From a virus: DNA of 23,904 nucleotides. The number at the start of each line of letters is the position of its first letter. Positions within the stretch are counted from its first letter, which is position 1. This document shows, in pieces, positions 115 to 16,938 of this stretch. Both the position numbers and the translations under genes were made by a program. Location: positions 1 to 23,904 of IMG/VR virus record IMGVR_UViG_3300036715_002301. The stretch is one strand, 5' to 3'. The notes under the pieces were generated by a model, which was given only the letters and a program-made list of their open reading frames with translations, was not told where the DNA came from and searched no databases.

Positions 115-1948
115 TTACGACAGACAAAAAAATATAGTAGAGCAAAATCTAAGAAACATCTACAAAAGTGAAGAAAATGATCTTGAGAAAGGTGGTGCAG
201 GTAGTAAGGGCGGAAAGATCGTAGGATACACTACTAGTGGGAAACCTATCTACGCCTCTTCTAAAGCTCAAGAACACAAGACATATACACCTCAAGAGCA
301 AAAAGAAGTTAGCGATCATCACGATAATGTTCAAAGAGGAGCTTCGATAGGTAAAACTCGATCAGGGAAAGACATTCACAGCCATAGATCCAACGCGAAT
401 CAATGGTCTAACCCCACTCGAGATAAAGATTTAAAATCATACTCAAAAGAAGATCATGAGGACGCCAAAGAGGCTCACACTAAGTTGAGAGACGAGCATA
501 GAGAAAAAGCAAAAAAAGCATCAGATGAAGGAAAAGACGCTGCTTGGTATAAACATGATCAAGCTGCATATAAGCACGACAGCTACGCGAAAGAGCATGA
601 AAATTCAGCTAAGCGAGTTGAAAAGTCTGAGTCAGACAACTTTCTTGAAAAAGGAGGTGCAGGTAGTAGGGGTGGAAAGATTATTGGATACACTAAAGGC
701 GGTCATGCAATTTACGAGTCAGGAACTGAGGGAAGAAAATTCACTCCTGATAACTTGCAGCGCATCAAAGATATGCACGACAAGCTTAAAGCAGAGGGCT
801 ACAATAACGATGCTATCGATGGAGCTATAGCTAACAGACATCAAAACCTTACTAACAAACAGCTCGATGAGGCGTATCATCATCACGGCATCTTAGATCA
901 CGCGGAAGGCAACACTCAAAAGCCAACATATTCGCATAAAAAAGCTACTGCAGTCAAGAAGTCTGAGTCAGAAGACCTTTCTGCACCACATCTACATCAG
1001 CAATTAATTAAAAGCCGAATAGCGCAGTGCTTCAAAGCAGATTCACCTCAAGTGACCACTGAGGAGTTAGAGAAAAGTGCAGACAACTTCCTTGAGAAAG
1101 GTGGTAAGCGCGCAGTGATCGGAGAGAGAAGAACATTTGGTGGACGAGAATACATCAAAACATCTGCAGGATGGAAGTTTCACGGGAAAGGCGGAGGAGC
1201 GAAAGCTATAGCACATCGCGAAGGAGCGTTAGATCATCACGTAGAAGCAGGTAAGGGTGAAAAGAAAGACACCACAAAAGAAGGAGATCAATCTACCATC
1301 AAAGACCTTGAAAGAGAGGCAGGCAAAACTCACTCCTCATTTGCCGACAATAGAGATAGAGGAACAGGATATGTGTACGATATCTCTCAAGATGGACAAA
1401 TTACAAGCTCAGGCAATTTGAGACATAATAAAAAATTCAAAACACCTGAACTTGCACAAGAATACTTGAAAAAGCAAGGATTCACTTTAAGAGAAGGTTT
1501 ACCTAAACCTACCTCTAAACACATTGGAGATATGAGCTTAAAAGAAAAGAAAGCTGCAGCTGATAAACTAGGAATATCTACCGAAGGTAAAACAGTAAAG
1601 CAAATCAACAAAGAGCTTGCTGACGCTAATGTAGATAAGGCTATTGCTGATTTTAAAGAAAAGAAAGCCATCCAGTTTGAATCTGCAGACGCGTTGGCAG
1701 AATTTGTGTCAGATTCTGAAGAAGGACATGAAGTTTTGAATGACGTTTTAGAAGATGGTGAGACAGCGTATTGGTTACTTTACGATGAATACATGTTAAA
1801 AACTTCAAAAGGCAAAGGTATGAAAAAGGATGGATATTCAGAAGGAGACATCGTTAGACAACTTCAAGACGAAGGAGACTATCACGATAAAGCGTCAGAT
1901 CATGCATTTAAAAAAATCTACGCTAAAATAAAAGGAGCGGGAAAGTAG
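107..1948 (+). CDS. LEKGG-repeat structural or cargo protein, 613 aa (short form of a frameshifted gene)
   Basis: A hydrophilic protein of unknown function with no membrane segment or signal peptide. It is modular. LEKGGAGS-K/R-GGK-I-x-GYT modules lie at residues 26-49 and 180-203, a half-copy (IGKTRSGKDIHSH) at about 81-93, and a related LEKGGKRAVIGE...GWKFHGKG module at 329-361. Each module is preceded by a KSE/EKS-acidic stretch and followed by His- and Lys-rich helix (DHHDN, DHEDAKEAH, KHDSYAKEH). The C-terminal third (about 400-610) looks like a mixed alpha/beta domain. The gene starts inside the end of the upstream gene and stops at TAG 1946-1948, immediately after a slippery heptamer, so a longer 719-aa product is likely. 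Its place between the probable portal gene and a MuF gene suggests a head-associated or packaged protein. Family knowledge: similar KGGEGSxGGK...GHTKSGKPIY modules recur in Bacteroidota phage proteins. The function is not known to me. Confidence 0.85.
   Translation: MNNYDRQKNIVEQNLRNIYKSEENDLEKGGAGSKGGKIVGYTTSGKPIYASSKAQEHKTYTPQEQKEVSDHHDNVQRGASIGKTRSGKDIHSHRSNANQWSNPTRDKDLKSYSKEDHEDAKEAHTKLRDEHREKAKKASDEGKDAAWYKHDQAAYKHDSYAKEHENSAKRVEKSESDNFLEKGGAGSRGGKIIGYTKGGHAIYESGTEGRKFTPDNLQRIKDMHDKLKAEGYNNDAIDGAIANRHQNLTNKQLDEAYHHHGILDHAEGNTQKPTYSHKKATAVKKSESEDLSAPHLHQQLIKSRIAQCFKADSPQVTTEELEKSADNFLEKGGKRAVIGERRTFGGREYIKTSAGWKFHGKGGGAKAIAHREGALDHHVEAGKGEKKDTTKEGDQSTIKDLEREAGKTHSSFADNRDRGTGYVYDISQDGQITSSGNLRHNKKFKTPELAQEYLKKQGFTLREGLPKPTSKHIGDMSLKEKKAAADKLGISTEGKTVKQINKELADANVDKAIADFKEKKAIQFESADALAEFVSDSEEGHEVLNDVLEDGETAYWLLYDEYMLKTSKGKGMKKDGYSEGDIVRQLQDEGDYHDKASDHAFKKIYAKIKGAGK
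182..253 (+). repeat. LEKGG module, copy 1 (type A)
   Basis: This encodes residues 26-49 of the 613-aa protein: LEKGGAGSKGGKIVGYTTSG followed by KPIY. It resembles copy 2 at 644-715 closely in protein (only a few substitutions) and clearly in DNA, consistent with internal duplication. Gly/Lys-rich with a small beta-prone core (KIVGYT...KPIY). Confidence 0.8.
644..715 (+). repeat. LEKGG module, copy 2 (type A)
   Basis: This encodes residues 180-203: LEKGGAGSRGGKIIGYTKGG followed by HAIY. It is preceded by VEKSESDNF, much like the SEEND before copy 1 and SADNF before copy 3, so the repeating unit includes an acidic Ser/Asp lead. Confidence 0.8.
1091..1189 (+). repeat. LEKGG module, copy 3 (type B)
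   Basis: This encodes residues 329-361, LEKGGKRAVIGERRTFGG then REYIKTSAGWKFHGKG. It is a different subtype from copies 1 and 2 and matches the module at 11337-11438 in another gene: LEKGGKRA-x-IGE-x-R-x-F-x-GR-x-x-IKT-x-x-GWK. Confidence 0.8.
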
Positions 1949-1981
1949 ATAGCTCCTCCTCAAAAGAAGAGGGTGGAGCTA
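1939..1981 (+). other. Putative programmed -1 ribosomal frameshift signal (GGGAAAG plus hairpin)
   Basis: GGGAAAG occupies 1939-1945 in the exact X_XXY_YYZ register of the 613-aa frame (G GGA AAG) and is followed directly by the TAG stop. Four bases later an inverted repeat begins: TAGCTCC (1950-1956) pairs with GGAGCTA (1975-1981), and after one T/T mismatch three more pairs form (1958-1960 with 1971-1973), leaving a 10-nt loop. The -1 frame has a stop at 1924-1926 and then is open to 2265, and this heptamer is the only one in that overlap. The same heptamer is used for the -1 shift in the phage lambda G/GT tail genes (established). Efficiency and function here are inferred. Confidence 0.8.
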
Positions 1982-2265
1982 AAATACCTCTAAGAGACAT
2001 CAATAAGATCAACAAATTAGCTGAGTGGTTGCAAGACAACTACAAGTCGATCGGTCAGCATTCAGATTATAACGAATACTACTACGCGACCGAAGAGCCT
2101 ATTTCTTCTAAGAGATGGAAGATTTTGTATGACGAATACACCAAAAAAGATCGAGAGCTTAATGAGGTGACTGATCAATACAGTAGAGATCAATTACTCG
2201 ATCAAATTGATAATGAAGACTTTAGAGGACTGAACGATGCAGGAGATTACGGATATAGAGAGTAA
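1945..2265 (+). CDS. Frameshift extension of the LEKGG-repeat protein, 106 aa
   Basis: After a -1 slip at 1945 the ribosome would read VDSSSSKEEGGAKIPLRDIN and on to ...GDYGYRE, ending at TAA 2263-2265, giving a 719-aa fusion. The frame has no ATG before the stop. The only likely independent start in range is TTG at 2029, which has no convincing ribosome binding site and falls inside a continuous helix (KINKLAEWLQDNYKSIG), so a separate gene is less likely. The extension is acidic and Tyr/Asp-rich (EYYYATEE, LNDAGDYGYRE). The next gene begins 3 bases after its stop. If no frameshift occurs, the remaining alternatives are a 78-aa TTG-start gene or a broken gene. Confidence 0.7.
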   Translation, partial: VDSSSSKEEGGAKIPLRDINKINKLAEWLQDNYKSIGQHSDYNEYYYATEEPISSKRWKILYDEYTKKDRELNEVTDQYSRDQLLDQIDNEDFRGLNDAGDYGYRE

Positions 2266-2268
2266 GAT

Positions 2269-3210
2269 ATGAACTTAACACCTAATCAAACCAACAAGCT
2301 ACTCAAGATCATAGACAAAAATCAAGCTATGGTTTTGGGTAGAGAGTTTGGAACAGATTTTCTAACAGATTACGATAAGCAACTTCTCGAAGAAAGTGGC
2401 GTAGATCTCGAATCGCTATATAGTGAAGCGACTGACACTGCTTTCACATCATTTCACTTTGGAATGCTTTCTGACTCTTTGAAAGAGATGGGATTAGCGG
2501 GTAAAACATCGTACAACGATTTATATGAGTATATCTCTAAAGGAGAGTATATTCCACTCACTCATTCAGAGATCGAAGCTATAAACAGCATAAAAACACA
2601 ATCACTAGCAAGCCTTCGTTCAGTAGGCGGTAAGATCTTTCAAGACATCAATCAAATACTTCCCGATTCATCAAGAGAGACTCAAGAAGCTTTCATTCGC
2701 AAAGAAGTGGAAGAGGGGATAAGATACAAGAAGACCACTCGCGAAATAGCAAGTGAAATAGCTCACAAAACAGGAGATTGGAGCAGAGATTTCGATCGAA
2801 TAGTACAGTATATGTCTCAAGCTGCTTTTGAAAGAGGCAAGGCGTCTGCAATGACAAGACAATACGGAGAAGATATCTTCGTTTACAAACAAGTATATCC
2901 AGGAGCGTGTAAGCACTGTATAAGACTATATCTCACTCAAGGACTAGGTAGTAAACCTAAGACATTCAAACTTGCAGAGCTAGTAGCTAACGGAAGCAAT
3001 ATTGGAAGAAAGGTCGCAGATTGGAAAGCTACATTAGATCCAATTCATCCGTACTGCAGATGCGTATTACAATACCTTTCTCACGAGAATAACTTCGATT
3101 GGAAAATTGACAAAAAGAAGTTTGAAACAACAGCCCCACCAAGTGTAGCGCCTACAAGAACTCGACCAAAAATCAAAGCTATTGTAGGTGGCAAAGAAGT
3201 TTGGGTATAG
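2269..3210 (+). CDS. MuF-type phage head morphogenesis (minor capsid) protein, 313 aa
   Basis: The C-terminal half carries the MuF pattern: a helical FERGKASAMTRQYG segment (about 187-200), then CKHC (C214, C217), a spacer, and HPYCRC (H260, C263, C265), a likely metal-binding set typical of the Mu gpF / SPP1 gp7 family. Members sit inside or on the procapsid close to the portal and aid assembly or DNA delivery. Residues 1-130 are helical and not recognisable. The tail after 285 is Pro/Thr/Lys-rich and ends with VGGKEVWV. The gene follows 3 bases after the frameshift extension and comes after the probable portal, the usual order in tailed phages. Length is normal for the family. Confidence 0.85.
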   Translation: MNLTPNQTNKLLKIIDKNQAMVLGREFGTDFLTDYDKQLLEESGVDLESLYSEATDTAFTSFHFGMLSDSLKEMGLAGKTSYNDLYEYISKGEYIPLTHSEIEAINSIKTQSLASLRSVGGKIFQDINQILPDSSRETQEAFIRKEVEEGIRYKKTTREIASEIAHKTGDWSRDFDRIVQYMSQAAFERGKASAMTRQYGEDIFVYKQVYPGACKHCIRLYLTQGLGSKPKTFKLAELVANGSNIGRKVADWKATLDPIHPYCRCVLQYLSHENNFDWKIDKKKFETTAPPSVAPTRTRPKIKAIVGGKEVWV

Positions 3211-4540: not shown

Positions 4541-7500
4541 ATGAAAAAATTTATCACATTAATCATTGCATTTATCATTTCTGCCTCGTGTGTCGCACAA
4601 ACGCAGACGATAAATGGTAACAAGAACAATACAGGAATACATACATTCCAACAACCGATTGTGCAAAAGAGTTTGCCGGAAAGCACTACCAACACCAATG
4701 CTATAACTGTTGATGCTCAAGGTAATACAGCTACTACACCGGTAAGTAGATTTAGTCCTCTCGCTATAAAAAATGGAACTACACTATTCACCAACTCTAC
4801 AGGAAATGAGGCAGGGAATGGAAGTGGAGCGACTATATATAATTCAAACTTATTTGGACAAGGGGCAGGAACAGCAGCAACTGGAGTAAATAACGTCAAC
4901 TTCTTCGGATCGAGTGCAGGGTCATTTGCAACGTCAGCTTATCAAGCGAATTTCTTTGGACCAAGTGCAGGATATAATGCTACCAATGCTTATAATTCAA
5001 ACTTTTTTGGTCCAAATGTGGCGTTTTCAGCAATCAACGCCAACAACTCAAACTTTTTCGGACGTAGTGCAGGATATTCAGCAACCAACGCCAACAGCTC
5101 AAACTTCTTTGGACAATTCGCAGGATATGGGGCAGCTAATGCAAGTGTATCCAACTTATTTGGATTTCAAGTCGGATACAATCCAGGAGGAGCAGGAATT
5201 GGAGAGAATAACATCATAATAGGAACAAACATATCATTGCCTGCTACAACAGCAAATTCTATTAATATAGGAGGAGTATTGTTCGGAACGGGATCGTATA
5301 GCACTTTAACAGGAAATCCATCGACAACACCGAATAGTGGAGGTAAGATAGGAATAGGAATAGTTGCCCCAACTGAGAAGTTAGACGTTGCAGGAAAGAT
5401 AAAAACACTCGACGGAATAACATCGCCTATTGATCACAGCTCAACGATAACTGATTTAGACTACACACAAAAAATATATGTAGATGCAGCAGACGCTACT
5501 CTAGTTGATCAAATAACCAACATTCAAAGCCAAATTAACCCAAACACTTATGTAGTTACTGATGCTGGAAGTTCACTTGTAATCAATGATTTTACATTGA
5601 ATGCTGGTTGGTCTTGGAAGATAAATAACGTTACAAATACCAATGCTTCGCCAGTTGTCATTACTATACCACTAGCAACTTCTGGGTATCAAAGAATAGA
5701 TTTGATTGTTTTGAACGCTTCAAACGCAGCTGTAAGAGTTGCGGGAACTGAAAGCGCAGGAACGGCTGCATCGCCAACAACACCTATTAATACCATTGCG
5801 ATAGCTTCTATCTTTAGTGACTCTACGGTTCACACATCTGCTACTCCTAAACCAAAATACCCAGTTACTCAATTTTTGAGGAATGGAGTTACGGACTATT
5901 CACCGAGTGAGGATGTGGTTTATGATGCATTAGCTTTAAAAGTCGACAAAAATACAGCCATTGCAGGCTCGACCAATACCAAAATAACTTATGATTCAAA
6001 AGGATTAGTTACATCAGGAACTTCATTAGTTGCTGGAGATATTCCGAACATTGCAGAAAGTCAAGTGACTGGTTTGGTGAGTGATTTATCTACAAAGAAA
6101 TCCGTAGCCACAGGAAACAACTACAAATGGGAGACTACAAGTGCAACAGGAAATTTACAAGAAACTACGGTAACGCCGAGTAGAGCAGTTGCAACTGATG
6201 TGAATGGATTACCAATAGCAAGCACTACCACAGCCACTGAGCTTAGTTTTGTTAATGGAGCTACTTCAAACCTACAGGCACAAATTAACACAAAACTAAG
6301 TTCTAACATTGGTACTATAAACTATCTTCCAAAAGTAACTGGCGCAAATAGCCTAGGAAATAGTAGGATAGTGGATACAGGAACTTACTTAGGAATAGGC
6401 ACTGCTAATGCTCCTACTAAGGATATAACGTTAGGGAATCAAACTAGTCGAGAAATAGGTGTTGAGCAAAGTAGTAATACAATTGCTGGAAGAGGTTTAC
6501 AAATACGTGGAGGAAGAACTATCAATTTTATCACCTCTTCTGATTTTATTCTTGTAAATCAAGATGTCGCAAGAGATTATCTTAGTTTTACAGCAAGTAG
6601 TAATGGCAGCGTATATGCTATATCAGGTGGCTTTCTTTACAGAAAAGTAGGGGGAGATAGTAATTTTACAGCAGTTTCAACCCCAGGAATTGGAAGTATT
6701 AATGGAATGTGTATTTCTTCATCAGATGACATGTATGTATCTACTAGTACTGGTATTTATAAACAAATTAATTTAACAGGTAGCTGGACTCTTTTATCTT
6801 CAGACTCATCTTTAAGAGCTATTGATATAGCTCCAAATGGAGATTTATATGGAGTAATTGGTTTATACTTTTTTTATGCTGGAGATGCGTATAAATTACC
6901 CAATGGTTCAAACACTCTTGTTCCTTTAGGACTTAATCCTACTTATAGCTATGCTGGAGTAGCAATTGCTAATGATGGTAGTGTTTATATTTCAGGGTAT
7001 GCCGCAGGAATACTTAAACAGCCAAATGGAAGCAGTACATTTACTCAAATTAATACTTCGGAAGCTACTTCAATATGTATTGATAATGCTAATAATTTAT
7101 ATTCAATTGGATGGAATGGTGGTGTAGTAAAAAAACAAACTAATTTAACTGGTCCCTTTTTAACAGTTAGCTCTGTGTTAGGTGAAGGTGTAGCCATAGG
7201 TTCTGACTTTAATAATAATATATATGCAAATGCTGGTGGTGGTTTATACTTACAAACTAACTATACTATAGGGTATCCTGATTTAGCTGGAGGAGACCTC
7301 AATCTATATACTGGAACAGGTAAAGGAACAGGAGATAATAATTTTAATGTCTATACAGGACAAAAATTAGCTTCGGGCACTGATATGCAAGTAGAAACCT
7401 TGCGAGCAAGAATCAACAACGAAGGTCTCATGACCTTGCCAAGTGTAACTAATGCTCTTATTTCTGCAGACGCTACTGGGAAAGCTGTTGTTACTAAAGA

Positions 7501-10062: not shown

Positions 10063-10719
10063 ATGAATTATCTTACTTACATAAAATCCGCAATAATATT
10101 AATTGCTGTTTGCGCTAGTATTTGGTTTTACAAAGACTACATTGACAAATCTGCCTTTAAAAAAGATACTGAAAATAATCAAGCTTGGAGTGACAAGCTT
10201 GACAGTTTGAGAATTTCATATATTGTTTTAACAGACAAACAAATGATTGAACATTTGAGTAATGACAAAAAAACAAATGCAATACTAAAAGAAAACAATA
10301 TAAAACTGGCACATGTAACGTCAATAATGAATCACGTTCTAAAATACAGAGATACTACAATTGTTCGAACAGATTTTAGCGATATGATTACAGCTATAAA
10401 TGAAAGAAAACCATACAAGCAACCTTTCAAAGATTCTACCGACTGTATGGTACTTAAAGGCTTTTTGGAATATCAACCAGGCACTATTGAAGTAGATGAA
10501 TTTGGAGGTTTAAGAAATGGAAGTCACGCTTCGCCTCTTTCATTTTCAATCACTGAAAGGTCTTTTGATAATGAAACAACAGCAGTTGCATACTGGCAAC
10601 ATAGACAATGGAAATTTCTAGGGATTAAAACTAGACTATTTGGTAAAAAAGAAGCTACAGCAAAAGTAGTAGATAAGTGTGGCAAAAGCCAAATTATTAA
10701 TATTGAAAAAGCTAAATAA
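10063..10719 (+). CDS. Membrane-anchored spanin-like protein, 218 aa
   Basis: An N-terminal transmembrane anchor (residues 8-23, KSAIILIAVCASIWFY) is followed by a periplasmic helical region (to about 105) and a mixed C-terminal part ending GIKTRLFGKKEATAKVVDKC-GKSQ. Similar anchored proteins ending in FGKK + beta strands follow amidases in Bacteroidota phages and prophages. By position it could be the inner-membrane spanin, which disrupts the outer membrane at the end of lysis, but no nested Rz1-type lipoprotein gene is apparent, so the role is inferred. Its TAA shares one base with the next ATG (TAATG). Confidence 0.65.
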   Translation: MNYLTYIKSAIILIAVCASIWFYKDYIDKSAFKKDTENNQAWSDKLDSLRISYIVLTDKQMIEHLSNDKKTNAILKENNIKLAHVTSIMNHVLKYRDTTIVRTDFSDMITAINERKPYKQPFKDSTDCMVLKGFLEYQPGTIEVDEFGGLRNGSHASPLSFSITERSFDNETTAVAYWQHRQWKFLGIKTRLFGKKEATAKVVDKCGKSQIINIEKAK

Positions 10720-13172
10720 TGTTCAAGGAGTTTACAACGACGATTAAGCAATTCTTAGGTCTAAAAAAAGGCTTAACGCATTATGCTGACTGTATTATAC
10801 GCAACGAAAAAGGACAACTCCTTTTTCTTGAAAGAAGCGCTCAGAGCAAAATAGAGCCTAGCAAATGGTGCCTACCAGGAGGACATCTTGATCCAGGAGA
10901 AATGCCTGAATACGCTGCAGCGAGAGAGTTGTTAGAAGAAACCAACTTACAGACGCCACTACAATTCATTGAAAGCGAAGAGAGAGCTGATAGTGTTAGC
11001 TTCTATTTTGAAGGCTATGTATTGTCAAGTCAACCAATTATTTTAGATAATAACGAACACTATCGCTATCAATGGGTTGAGGTAGAGGATATTGCAAAAT
11101 ACGATCTATTGTTTGATCTCAAACACATCCTAATGCATAAGATAGGGTTGCCAATTTACTCCACGAAGTTAATGGAGTTGGATTTAGTGGACGCCAATGA
11201 TCTATTCAAAAGAGTAGAGCTAGTTGAGAAAAGCTTCGACGCAGATCAAATGACTGTTGAGGAGTTTTTTAAATGCAAAGAACTTGCTAAAACACACGCA
11301 GCGACAATCATAATTCAAGCGCAAGAGCAAAATGAGCTTGAAAAGGGAGGAAAGCGCGCTTTTATTGGAGAGAAAAGAGAGTTTGCAGGCAGAATGCATA
11401 TCAAGACTATCGACGGATGGAAGTACTTTGGAGACGGCTTAGGAAAGAAAGCTAAAGAACATAGTATATCGAGTCCTACGGTTAAAGCAGCGAGAGCGGT
11501 AGTTTATCCTACCAAATCGACAGAATCTACCACCAAATCGTCGTTGCCGGAAATCTCAGACTTAGACTTTTCATCTAAAGTAGGTGCAGGAGGTAGCGGT
11601 AGAGCTTATATTATTTCAGATTCAACCGGTAAGAAATACGTTATCAAAGAAGCTCAAGAGTATGGCGATAAAAACACGTTAGAACAGCTTAAAAACGAAC
11701 AACTAGCCGATTCGATATATGCAGCTATGGGGGTAGCTAATAGTGGAGGAGAGCTTAAGAAAGACGCATCAGGAACTACTTTCAAAATCGCCCCTTTTAT
11801 TGAAAAATCAAAAGAGTTGGGATCTTTATCTACATCGTCTGACGAATACAAGACTGCAAAAAAAATACTGCAGAAAAATTTCGTCCTAGACTGCCTACTT
11901 TTGAATTGGGACGTTATAGGGGCTGGTAAAGACAATGTAGTAGTGACTGGACTCGGAATGCCTCATAGAATAGATAATGGAGGATCTTTGCTGTATAGAG
12001 CTAAAAATGGCCTTAAAAGTGAAGCTTCATTAACAGAAACAGTTAGTGAAATAGATGTGATGAGAAGTTCAAAAAATCCATCAGCTAAAGAGATTTTTGG
12101 CGACATTGCTGATGATGAGATATTTAAACAAGTCGAAGAGATAGTTGCTAAAAGAGATGACATTCTACAAGCAATAATGGAGTCAGAGAGTTCATCGAAA
12201 TCAAAACTTCACTCACTGATTGCAAAGCGAATCGACTCTCTTGAAAGTAAATATGTTAAGGGAGAGCGAACAAGCATCGAGCCTACTATAGCTGAAATAG
12301 AAAAAGAGAGATTGAGACCAGGCTCAACTACAGATAAGTGGAAAGAGAAGATGATAGAAGGAGAGACTATTGTTGGCCATAGAGGCATTGCTCATGGAAT
12401 TATCGAGCATGTGGAAGAGGTAGAGAAAATCAACGAGAAATATTATAAACAGTATGCCGACAGGCGTGGAATATCTATAGAGGAGTATAAAAGCAAACTA
12501 CAAGATAAGATCGAAAGAATAGCTAATTCAGTATCTCTATTCAGAGCGACTGATATTGAGATACTAGATATCGTTTTAAACGTGTCTAAACGATTCAAAT
12601 CGCAATTTGAGACATCTACTAGTCACGGATCATTATCTCCCGAATCGAGATCGAGAGCAGAGGCAAACTATTTTGGCTTCCCTAAAAGCGCGTCAATGAA
12701 CAAAGAGATGCGTCCAATTTACGGATATTGTTCAACCAATATACATGGAGTGCAAAATAGCTCAGGATCACATCCTCCCGCTAATAGCGCTTCTCACTAC
12801 GGAGGAGTTACGATCAAGATTAAAGACGAGGTAAAAAAACAAGCGACATTCACATTTGGAGACAGTCTTGGTTCAGACGGTAGTAGAGCTGCTACGCCGT
12901 TATTAGCGCCTCACTTTACATCATTTAAAGCACACAGCGATCCGTTAGATTTAAGCGAAGATATATCTAAGTATAGTGGGGATTATGTAGAAGTGCAGTT
13001 TCACAACCAACTAACAGTAAACGAAATAGAGTCGGTAGAGCTCTCTCCATTAAATGTCTCCTCTTCATCTAGTGGAGAAGGACTAACAAAGAAACAGTTA
13101 GAATACATCAATAAAGTAATCGAAGTGACGAGAAAGACGCACTTAAAAATAGAGATTTATGGAGATAAGTAG
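10719..13172 (+). CDS. Nudix / LEKGG / kinase-like / DUF3626-like (ART-like) multidomain protein, 817 aa
   Basis: Domains in order. Residues 18-145: Nudix hydrolase; G55-x5-E61-x7-R69-E70-L-L-E73-E74-T-N-L matches the Nudix box except Asn for the usual Gly at 76; such enzymes cleave nucleoside diphosphate-X compounds. Residues 207-240: LEKGG type B module. Residues 285-430: protein-kinase-like fold with Gly-rich loop GAGGSGRAY, K310, helix-C Glu327, NWDVIG (D398), DN (N406) and RIDNGGSL (D419). Residues 510-610: charged helices. Residues 620-780: QFETSTSHG, RPIYGY, SHYGG and YVEVQFHN (E758), the pattern of DUF3626, which I read as ADP-ribosyltransferase-like. Such fusions fit the 'polyvalent protein' concept of Iyer, Aravind and colleagues: enzymes carried by phages to modify or counter host systems. 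It overlaps both neighbours slightly, placing it in the late operon. Confidence 0.8.
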   Translation: MFKEFTTTIKQFLGLKKGLTHYADCIIRNEKGQLLFLERSAQSKIEPSKWCLPGGHLDPGEMPEYAAARELLEETNLQTPLQFIESEERADSVSFYFEGYVLSSQPIILDNNEHYRYQWVEVEDIAKYDLLFDLKHILMHKIGLPIYSTKLMELDLVDANDLFKRVELVEKSFDADQMTVEEFFKCKELAKTHAATIIIQAQEQNELEKGGKRAFIGEKREFAGRMHIKTIDGWKYFGDGLGKKAKEHSISSPTVKAARAVVYPTKSTESTTKSSLPEISDLDFSSKVGAGGSGRAYIISDSTGKKYVIKEAQEYGDKNTLEQLKNEQLADSIYAAMGVANSGGELKKDASGTTFKIAPFIEKSKELGSLSTSSDEYKTAKKILQKNFVLDCLLLNWDVIGAGKDNVVVTGLGMPHRIDNGGSLLYRAKNGLKSEASLTETVSEIDVMRSSKNPSAKEIFGDIADDEIFKQVEEIVAKRDDILQAIMESESSSKSKLHSLIAKRIDSLESKYVKGERTSIEPTIAEIEKERLRPGSTTDKWKEKMIEGETIVGHRGIAHGIIEHVEEVEKINEKYYKQYADRRGISIEEYKSKLQDKIERIANSVSLFRATDIEILDIVLNVSKRFKSQFETSTSHGSLSPESRSRAEANYFGFPKSASMNKEMRPIYGYCSTNIHGVQNSSGSHPPANSASHYGGVTIKIKDEVKKQATFTFGDSLGSDGSRAATPLLAPHFTSFKAHSDPLDLSEDISKYSGDYVEVQFHNQLTVNEIESVELSPLNVSSSSSGEGLTKKQLEYINKVIEVTRKTHLKIEIYGDK
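11337..11438 (+). repeat. LEKGG module, copy 4 (type B) inside the Nudix/kinase protein
   Basis: This encodes residues 207-240, LEKGGKRAFIGEKREFAG then RMHIKTIDGWKYFGDG. About 20 of 33 positions agree with copy 3 at 1091-1189. It is located between two catalytic domains, preceded by Gln/Glu-rich helix and followed by a Ser/Thr/Pro linker, so it behaves as an independent mobile module. Confidence 0.8.

Positions 13173-13432: not shown

Positions 13433-13443
<11 letters not shown>
13159..13443 (+). CDS. Hypothetical protein, 94 aa
   Basis: The family is not recognised. An N-terminal beta-rich half (SNIIAIGATEGDGMILLIAQ, then KCICFDRSMKQINRIDS) is followed by a helical half (NQLDAKKAEIVKEIIERELS). 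It overlaps the preceding gene by 14 bases and the following protease gene by 11, so it is coupled to both. It might be a small partner of the multidomain protein or of the protease; nothing in its sequence decides this. Confidence 0.7.
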
Positions 13444-15409
<1,966 letters not shown>

Positions 15410-15471: not shown

Positions 15472-16938
15472 ATGACGACACTTAACGATTATGCAGGAGA
15501 AGGATTCTTGGGCGGAGAAAACGACGGCCAAATCGAACTTCAAAAAGCAATGCAGGCTGGTGCTATTACCGGTCGCGATACGACAGGACAAACTCTTTCA
15601 CAAGAGCCCCTTAAAGCTGAGAGCTTAGAGAAAACTCTCAAACTTCTTGAATACAGAGCTTCTGACATCAAGTTAATGAATTTGATGCCGAAACTGACAG
15701 CTTACAATACAGTAGAGGAGTTCTTACAACTTTCTTCTTATGGTAGCCAAAGAGGAGGTTTCTACGATGAAGGTGAACTTTCTGACGTAGAAGATTCTCA
15801 ATACATCAGACGTTCCGAGCTAGTGAAATACATGCAAGTAACCGGTGAGGTAACTATGCAAGCTCAAATGGTACGTTCTTATGTAGATGCAATGAGACAA
15901 GAGGTTGAAAACAAAATGATGTGGATCATGAGATTGGCTAACAAGTCATTGACTCACTCTGACTCAGAGGTGATTCCACAACAATTCAACTCGATCTACA
16001 AACAGCACGCTTCTGTAGGAATAACACAAGATTACTTGTATGCTACGTTTGAAGCTTACTACAATGCCGAAGTAGTAGTGGATTTGAGAGGTGCTTCTTT
16101 GAAACAAGGAGATGTAGAAGACGCTGCTGTAAAAGTAGATGCTAACTACGGAAACGTATCTCACCTTGTAGCTCCAACTACAGTGATCTCAGCTTTCGCT
16201 AAAGATTACTACCAAACTCAAAGAATCATGATGAATGGTGGATTTGACGGTGGAGTGAATACAGTGCCAAAAGTGATTTCAACCACACTTGGAGATGTTC
16301 AGTTGGTTTCTGACAAATTTATGAAAACTGATCCTTCAAGATTAAGCACAACTCCAGCAACTTCTGTTAAAGCGCCTGCAGCACCGGTTATCAGTGGCAT
16401 CACTGTTCCAGCAGATGTGAACGCTAAGTTTAAAGCAGCAGAAGTAGGAAACGTTTACTATGCTGTTTCAGCTGTGAACAGATACGGAGAATCAAACATC
16501 ACTATTCACCCAACTGCGGTAACGTTAGCGGTAGGTAGTGCAGCTCAGATTGCATTCACTCAAGGGGTTGGTTCAATCTCAGCTAGTGGATTTGTAGTGT
16601 ATAGAACTAAAGTTACTGTAGCAGGATCTGCCGCAGGATTAGAGTTCTTCCCAATCTTCTCAGTTTCTGAATCTGGAAGAGCTAGTGGATACCAAGGAGC
16701 TGCAGCAGGAGCTGTGAGAGATGCAGGATACTTCTTGCCTGATACAGAGCAAGCTTTTGTAACTGACATCAACGACGAGGTAATGTCGTTCAAACAGTTG
16801 GCTCCTATTTCTAAATTGGACTTAGCGGTTCAATCGATGAGTAGAAGATTCATCTGCTTCTTATTTGGTACACCACAAGTGTATGCTCCTAAGAAAATTG
16901 TGAGATTCATCAACGTTGGTAAGAAATATACTACATAA
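15472..16938 (+). CDS. Major capsid protein with Ig/FN3-like insertion, 488 aa
   Basis: An HK97-fold-type capsid protein by motif and place. The N-terminal ELQKAMQAGAITGRDTTGQ and ASDIKLMNLMPKLTAYNTVEE...QLSSYGSQRGGFYDEGELSD segments are typical of a large family of tailed-phage capsids. The body continues with VENKMMWIMRLANKSLTHSD and the closing RRFICFLFGTPQVYAPKKIV. Residues about 300-405 (KAPAAPVISGITVPAD ... IFSVSESGRASG) read as an Ig/FN3-like beta domain with the phrase VYYAVSAVNRYGES, likely exposed on the capsid surface. It follows the protease-scaffold gene by 62 bases and is followed by a strong terminator. Codon choice is clean and uniform, fitting high expression. An N-terminal cleavage site is not evident. 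Confidence 0.88.
   Translation: MTTLNDYAGEGFLGGENDGQIELQKAMQAGAITGRDTTGQTLSQEPLKAESLEKTLKLLEYRASDIKLMNLMPKLTAYNTVEEFLQLSSYGSQRGGFYDEGELSDVEDSQYIRRSELVKYMQVTGEVTMQAQMVRSYVDAMRQEVENKMMWIMRLANKSLTHSDSEVIPQQFNSIYKQHASVGITQDYLYATFEAYYNAEVVVDLRGASLKQGDVEDAAVKVDANYGNVSHLVAPTTVISAFAKDYYQTQRIMMNGGFDGGVNTVPKVISTTLGDVQLVSDKFMKTDPSRLSTTPATSVKAPAAPVISGITVPADVNAKFKAAEVGNVYYAVSAVNRYGESNITIHPTAVTLAVGSAAQIAFTQGVGSISASGFVVYRTKVTVAGSAAGLEFFPIFSVSESGRASGYQGAAAGAVRDAGYFLPDTEQAFVTDINDEVMSFKQLAPISKLDLAVQSMSRRFICFLFGTPQVYAPKKIVRFINVGKKYTT

Follow-up and report, generated by a model that had tools for sequence, protein, structure and literature searches.

In phage lambda, the tail-chaperone pair G/GT is expressed by a frameshift at the heptamer G GGA AAG. 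Slippage at this heptamer in the -1 direction is known not only for tail chaperones but also for SU10/phiEco32-like capsid genes (PMC4281155, PMC7881722; reviewed in PMC5009743). SU10, phiEco32-like phages, and Privateer are reported to slip at it within the gene for their major capsid protein, and in E. coli the sequence shifts very readily (PMC5009743). The E. coli dnaX gene uses A AAA AAG with an 11-bp hairpin behind a 5-nt spacer (PMC8861025). In addition, T4 Alt and internal proteins, P1 DarA, and polyvalent proteins are likely protease-processed, head-internal, modular proteins with genes next to MuF (PMC5512222, PMC12810830); the terms searched in these two papers gave no mention of frameshifting.

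The present analysis concerns the gene at 107-1948 of a 23.9-kb virus record from IMG/VR (the window, i.e., the whole stretch of DNA analysed), which encodes a 613-aa LEKGG-module protein with homologues in two related phages, L003 and MA9V-3; all features described below between positions 107 and 3210 lie on the plus strand. Based on the signal in the sequence, its conservation, and selection on the -1 frame protein, this gene is considered, with a probability of roughly 90%, to undergo a programmed -1 ribosomal frameshift by which one slip would make a short and a long form of a probably head-associated protein. The locus resembles lambda G/GT in its heptamer, a -1 shift near the 3' end of the gene, and a predicted minor longer product, but differs in lying upstream of the MuF, protease, and capsid genes and in having a strong hairpin and a TAG abutting the heptamer. 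Searches against PHROG, Pfam, and NCBIfam gave no chaperone match, and the gene is not located between a major tail protein and a tape measure. With the phiEco32/SU10/Privateer capsid genes, it shares the heptamer, the head-gene setting, and a C-terminal extension, and the capsid protein of the window is itself of the SU10 type; unlike in those phages, however, the slip site is not in the capsid gene (15472-16938), and the extension is predicted to be all-helical rather than Ig-like, with no structural match. The preliminary description had placed the heptamer in a head-region gene and not in a chaperone pair, and this position holds, but the oddity it implied was too strong given the capsid-gene precedents. 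With dnaX, the window has in common its hairpin and spacer geometry, and MA9V-3 its slip-to-early-stop design, whereas the heptamer and the gene are different and the upstream Shine-Dalgarno element of dnaX is unlikely to function in Bacteroidia. The T4, P1, and polyvalent proteins are alike in their probable head-internal, modular nature and gene position but have no homology with the window protein.

The final codons of the 0-frame ORF are GGA (1940-1942), AAG (1943-1945), and TAG (1946-1948), placing the heptamer G GGA AAG (1939-1945; identical in L003 and MA9V-3) in the X XXY YYZ slip register with the 0-frame stop abutting it. The last -1 frame stop before the slip site is a TAA at 1924-1926, and the frame then stays open until the TAA at 2263-2265, yielding an extension (1945-2265) of 106 residues after K613, which is predicted to be an all-helical domain. 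No ATG occurs in this frame; it contains two TTG (codons 31 and 63) and one GTG (codon 77), none of them at the junction. Codon positions and frame reading thus agree with the preliminary description on the register, the open -1 frame without ATG, and the predicted products of 613 aa and 719 aa (613 + 106). In-register GGGAAAG is unique to the slip site among plus-strand ORFs of at least 80 aa in the window. A census covering 173,549 codons, taken from ORFs of 200 aa or longer in the window and related loci, revealed 17 such heptamers. Apart from those of the window and L003, none had a 0-frame stop in the next 5 codons or a -1 extension reaching 50 codons; the window and L003 sites combine both features and carried the two strongest hairpins of the 17.

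A putative stimulatory hairpin of 12 bp with one bulge (1950-1981) begins 4 nt 3' of the heptamer, slightly below the usual spacer of 5-8 nt (PMC4066793). Its stem pairs 1950-1961 with 1969-1973 and 1975-1981, leaving a bulged U at 1974 and a 7-nt loop; a hairpin after the TAG had been recognized earlier, with its pairing understated as 7 bp plus three across a mismatch. The folding energy is -18 kcal/mol (45-nt fold; z = -3.5), and none of 200 shuffles was equally stable. Compared with synonymous recoding of the same peptides, the stability was exceptional in both the window (P = 0.002) and L003 (P = 0.02), so the encoded peptide does not by itself account for the strength of the hairpin. An AGGAG at 1933-1937 is almost adjacent to the heptamer, and in Bacteroidia the ribosome keeps its anti-Shine-Dalgarno sequence sequestered, leaving Shine-Dalgarno sequences normally unrecognised (PMC9976891). 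For both reasons no Shine-Dalgarno stimulator is claimed, and because such ribosomes are normally blind to this element, a hairpin stimulator is expected. The host group of the window's phage is probably Bacteroidota, judging from MA9V-3, a Chryseobacterium phage.

L003 (IMGVR_UViG_3300020045_012035) was found by a search with the window MuF protein, to which its own MuF is 67% identical. Its homologous gene (4797-5684) also has G GGA AAG TAG at its end, with an unchanged 5' hairpin arm behind it; the heptamer, the TAG, and the next 19 nt (29 nt in total) are identical to those of the window. Over the -1 ORFs, 89 of 321 nt differ (28%), and the L003 extension of 107 residues is 67% identical to that of the window. 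In the -1 frame, dN was 0.22 and dS 1.45 (dN/dS about 0.15), while in the other two frames over the extension dN was about equal to dS; purifying selection thus acts on the protein encoded in the -1 frame. No ATG, GTG, or TTG occurs in the L003 -1 ORF, which starts at the heptamer because a -1 frame TGA sits immediately before it. The 5' arm of the hairpin is common to both phages and the 3' arm lies about 6 nt earlier in L003, in a codon alignment ungapped across the hairpin, so it is the pairing that is conserved rather than the position of the 3' arm. Conservation of the signal and selection on the new frame were thus both observed, with L003 as the one relative. The comparison of related phages proposed in the preliminary description therefore came out as that description expected, with the heptamer and hairpin kept and the L003 -1 ORF lacking a start codon; together with the selection on the -1 protein and a hairpin beyond the amino-acid null, it supports the frameshift interpretation.

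The same arrangement in L003 and the protein-level selection also make a separate gene unlikely and effectively exclude an indel. A small separate gene would be translated by coupling or reinitiation after the TAG from a non-canonical start, the hairpin serving that process or RNA stability; a candidate start does exist in both phages at the 16th -1 codon, which reads ATA in the window and ATT in that of L003, and the first 9 identical codons could serve the RNA hairpin and not the peptide. Yet ATG, GTG, or TTG is nowhere conserved and wholly missing from L003, most other genes in these phages start with ATG, and an in-register heptamer abutting a stop would go unexplained, leaving this alternative a slim chance. 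For a metagenome-derived contig, where broken frames are common, an indel introduced by sequencing or assembly, or decay of the gene, comes to mind, but either is very improbable with the arrangement repeated in L003, whose -1 ORF differs by 28% at a dN/dS of about 0.15. TAG is reassigned in some Bacteroidota phages, which would favor a reassigned TAG or its readthrough; however, the 0 frame after the TAG is short and dissimilar between the window and L003, and the MuF gene and two others terminate with TAG, making this the least probable account of all.

Programmed frameshifting at this gene may also extend to MA9V-3 (locus L002), an isolated phage and a myovirus (PMC13120357) with a MuF of 63% identity. 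Its homologous gene (L002 6371-7933) shares with the window both the LEKGG module and the domain DMS..ADKLGI and runs in a continuous 0 frame to a 520-aa product. A continuous homologue had been named beforehand as grounds for rejecting the frameshift, and the MA9V-3 gene is indeed continuous, but its C-terminus is unrelated and it has its own slip site, which a swap of frames fits better than an indel in the window. This slip site is an in-register G GGA AAG just after the shared domain (one of two in 50 kb), followed again after a 4-nt spacer by a hairpin of 7 bp (27-nt hairpin, P = 0.005; the 105-nt fold is ordinary, z = -0.8). Past the heptamer, the 0 frame runs 135 codons and the -1 frame reads GGG AAA GTC TAA. 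With an open 0 frame and a -1 frame that terminates immediately, both forms would again arise, slipping yielding a 386-aa short form and the long form being encoded in frame 0. In-register heptamer, hairpin, and immediate -1 stop are the features of a dnaX-type truncating site, and such a function is presumed here. MA9V-3 thus probably keeps the two-form output with the frames exchanged, apparently lambda-type in the window and L003 and dnaX-type in MA9V-3.

No significant homology was detected when the MA9V-3 C-terminus was compared with the window extension and with the window's own 0-frame C-terminus. The slip sites lie 2, about 28, and about 90 residues past the shared domain in the three phages and cannot be aligned by residue; because the MA9V-3 site is equivalent by order only and its wider fold is ordinary, the frame-swap step is one that we infer. 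The site might be coincidental, with a single 520-aa product in MA9V-3 and a real signal in the window and L003, as its unalignable position, its ordinary 105-nt fold, and the roughly 5% of genes this length expected from the census to hold an in-register GGGAAAG would allow. Such a coincidence seems unlikely given that heptamer, 4-nt spacer, and 7-bp hairpin come together in precisely this gene, for which the rough chance of heptamer plus hairpin is about 1 in 500 to 1 in 3000 (heptamer about 5% per gene of this length; hairpin-start share of coding sites about 0.7-4%). A broader proposal, a capsid-internal protein of two lengths in fixed ratio, kept by frameshifting despite the frame swap and with exchangeable, unrelated C-terminal domains, is put forward tentatively, at slightly less than even odds.

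The extension was modelled as five helices (all-helical, pLDDT 83), and searches of the model against PDB and BFVD returned no matches. Homology searches of IMG/VR contigs, GTDB genomes, and INPHARED, and a search by exact DNA motif, recovered L003 alone as a homologue of the extension, and the upstream-domain search also recovered L003. In L109, reached via the LEKGG module, the upstream domain is in a separate ATG-started gene with no slip site. A 727-aa protein of L036 (433-2616), encoded before MuF, has a C-terminal stretch in the 0 frame resembling the end of the extension (DDENFKNLNTADDFG, E = 0.0055), hinting that an extension-like domain may be used elsewhere without slipping.

About 75 MuF neighbourhoods were surveyed for slip sites, and the other candidates that turned up were rejected, their overlapping ORFs having an ATG of their own. 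One example is an A AAA AAC in L080 (3471-3486), also found in L081 and L083, which lies before MuF where an upstream gene overlaps a Nudix gene; the Nudix ORF has its own ATG, so fusion is uncertain. Another is A AAA AAT in L036 and L037. Separately, in-frame intein-like segments were observed in the AAA-type ATPase gene of L003 (580-3309), at a site uninterrupted in the MA9V-3 homologue, and in the MuF gene of L004 (222-2204), just ahead of the conserved CRC motif.

The neighbours of the slip-site gene are a small conserved gene on one side and the MuF-like minor head protein gene (2269-3210) on the other; genes for the head protease and the SU10-type capsid protein follow further downstream. 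The MuF label originated with the preliminary description, to which a conserved C-x2-C...CRC pattern, relatives among head genes, and a weak PHROG match are added here. The slip-site gene itself had no match in domain libraries, PHROG, Pfam, and NCBIfam among them. It contains a first LEKGG motif at 182-196 (module GAGSKGGKIVGYT), a second at 644-658, and a third module at 1091-1252 (KRAVIGERRTFGGREYIKT) that is widespread in genes near MuF, as well as the domain SKHIGDMS..AADKLGI (1514-1666), conserved upstream of the slip site in L003 and MA9V-3. LEKGG modules recur near MuF in many phages, fused to unrelated domains (AAA-type ATPase, Nudix/DUF3626, and others), and their structure was predicted with low confidence as three strands. 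The motif [LIVMF][EQ]K[SGA] occurs 5 times in the slip-site protein (0.4 expected), 6 times in the window protease-scaffold protein (13433-15409; 0.4 expected), and 9 times in that of MA9V-3; P values for it serve as a guide only because the pattern was chosen after viewing these same proteins. It is also found at residue 23-24 of the capsid proteins of the window and MA9V-3 and is absent from MuF. In the simplest reading, this motif is a candidate mark of head-protease cleavage sites in this phage group, and motif and gene order together would make LEKGG proteins head-internal and trimmed. MuF adjacency, the LEKGG modules, and the shared motif likewise suggest that the slip-site product may be capsid-internal and protease-processed. 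In the protease-scaffold protein, the motif lies near residue 13 of the protease and is repeated in the scaffold part, and an uninterrupted Asp run (KDDDD...DDFEKA) was also seen. Another gene of the window (10719-13172) encodes an 817-aa protein combining a Nudix domain, a LEKGG module, a stretch kinase-like by eye, and DUF3626, which resembles a head-packed, injected multidomain effector and has a close relative in L104.

In the proposed mechanism, the majority of ribosomes would terminate at the TAG at 1946 to give the 613-aa protein, while the hairpin 4 nt downstream would pause a fraction of them, allowing the tRNAs to re-pair in tandem from GGA-AAG to GGG-AAA and bypass the TAG; the TAG as next codon may contribute via slow termination. 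Slipped ribosomes would make the 719-aa protein with the helical C-terminal domain, and the slip rate would set the ratio of short to long form. Both products would be expected in the virion, most likely within or as part of the head, trimmed by the head maturation protease.

Within the literature searched, three things are new: this family of genes, its helical extension, and what looks like a switch between lambda-type and dnaX-type designs from one relative to another. Well-established frameshifts of tailed phages mostly concern tail chaperones, major capsid, and major tail proteins. A conserved slip signal in a modular head-associated gene of Bacteroidota phages points to a stimulator consisting of a hairpin only and suggests that the slip controls the dosage of a protein that the head probably carries. 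Because MA9V-3 is an isolated phage, the swapped design can be put to a direct test.
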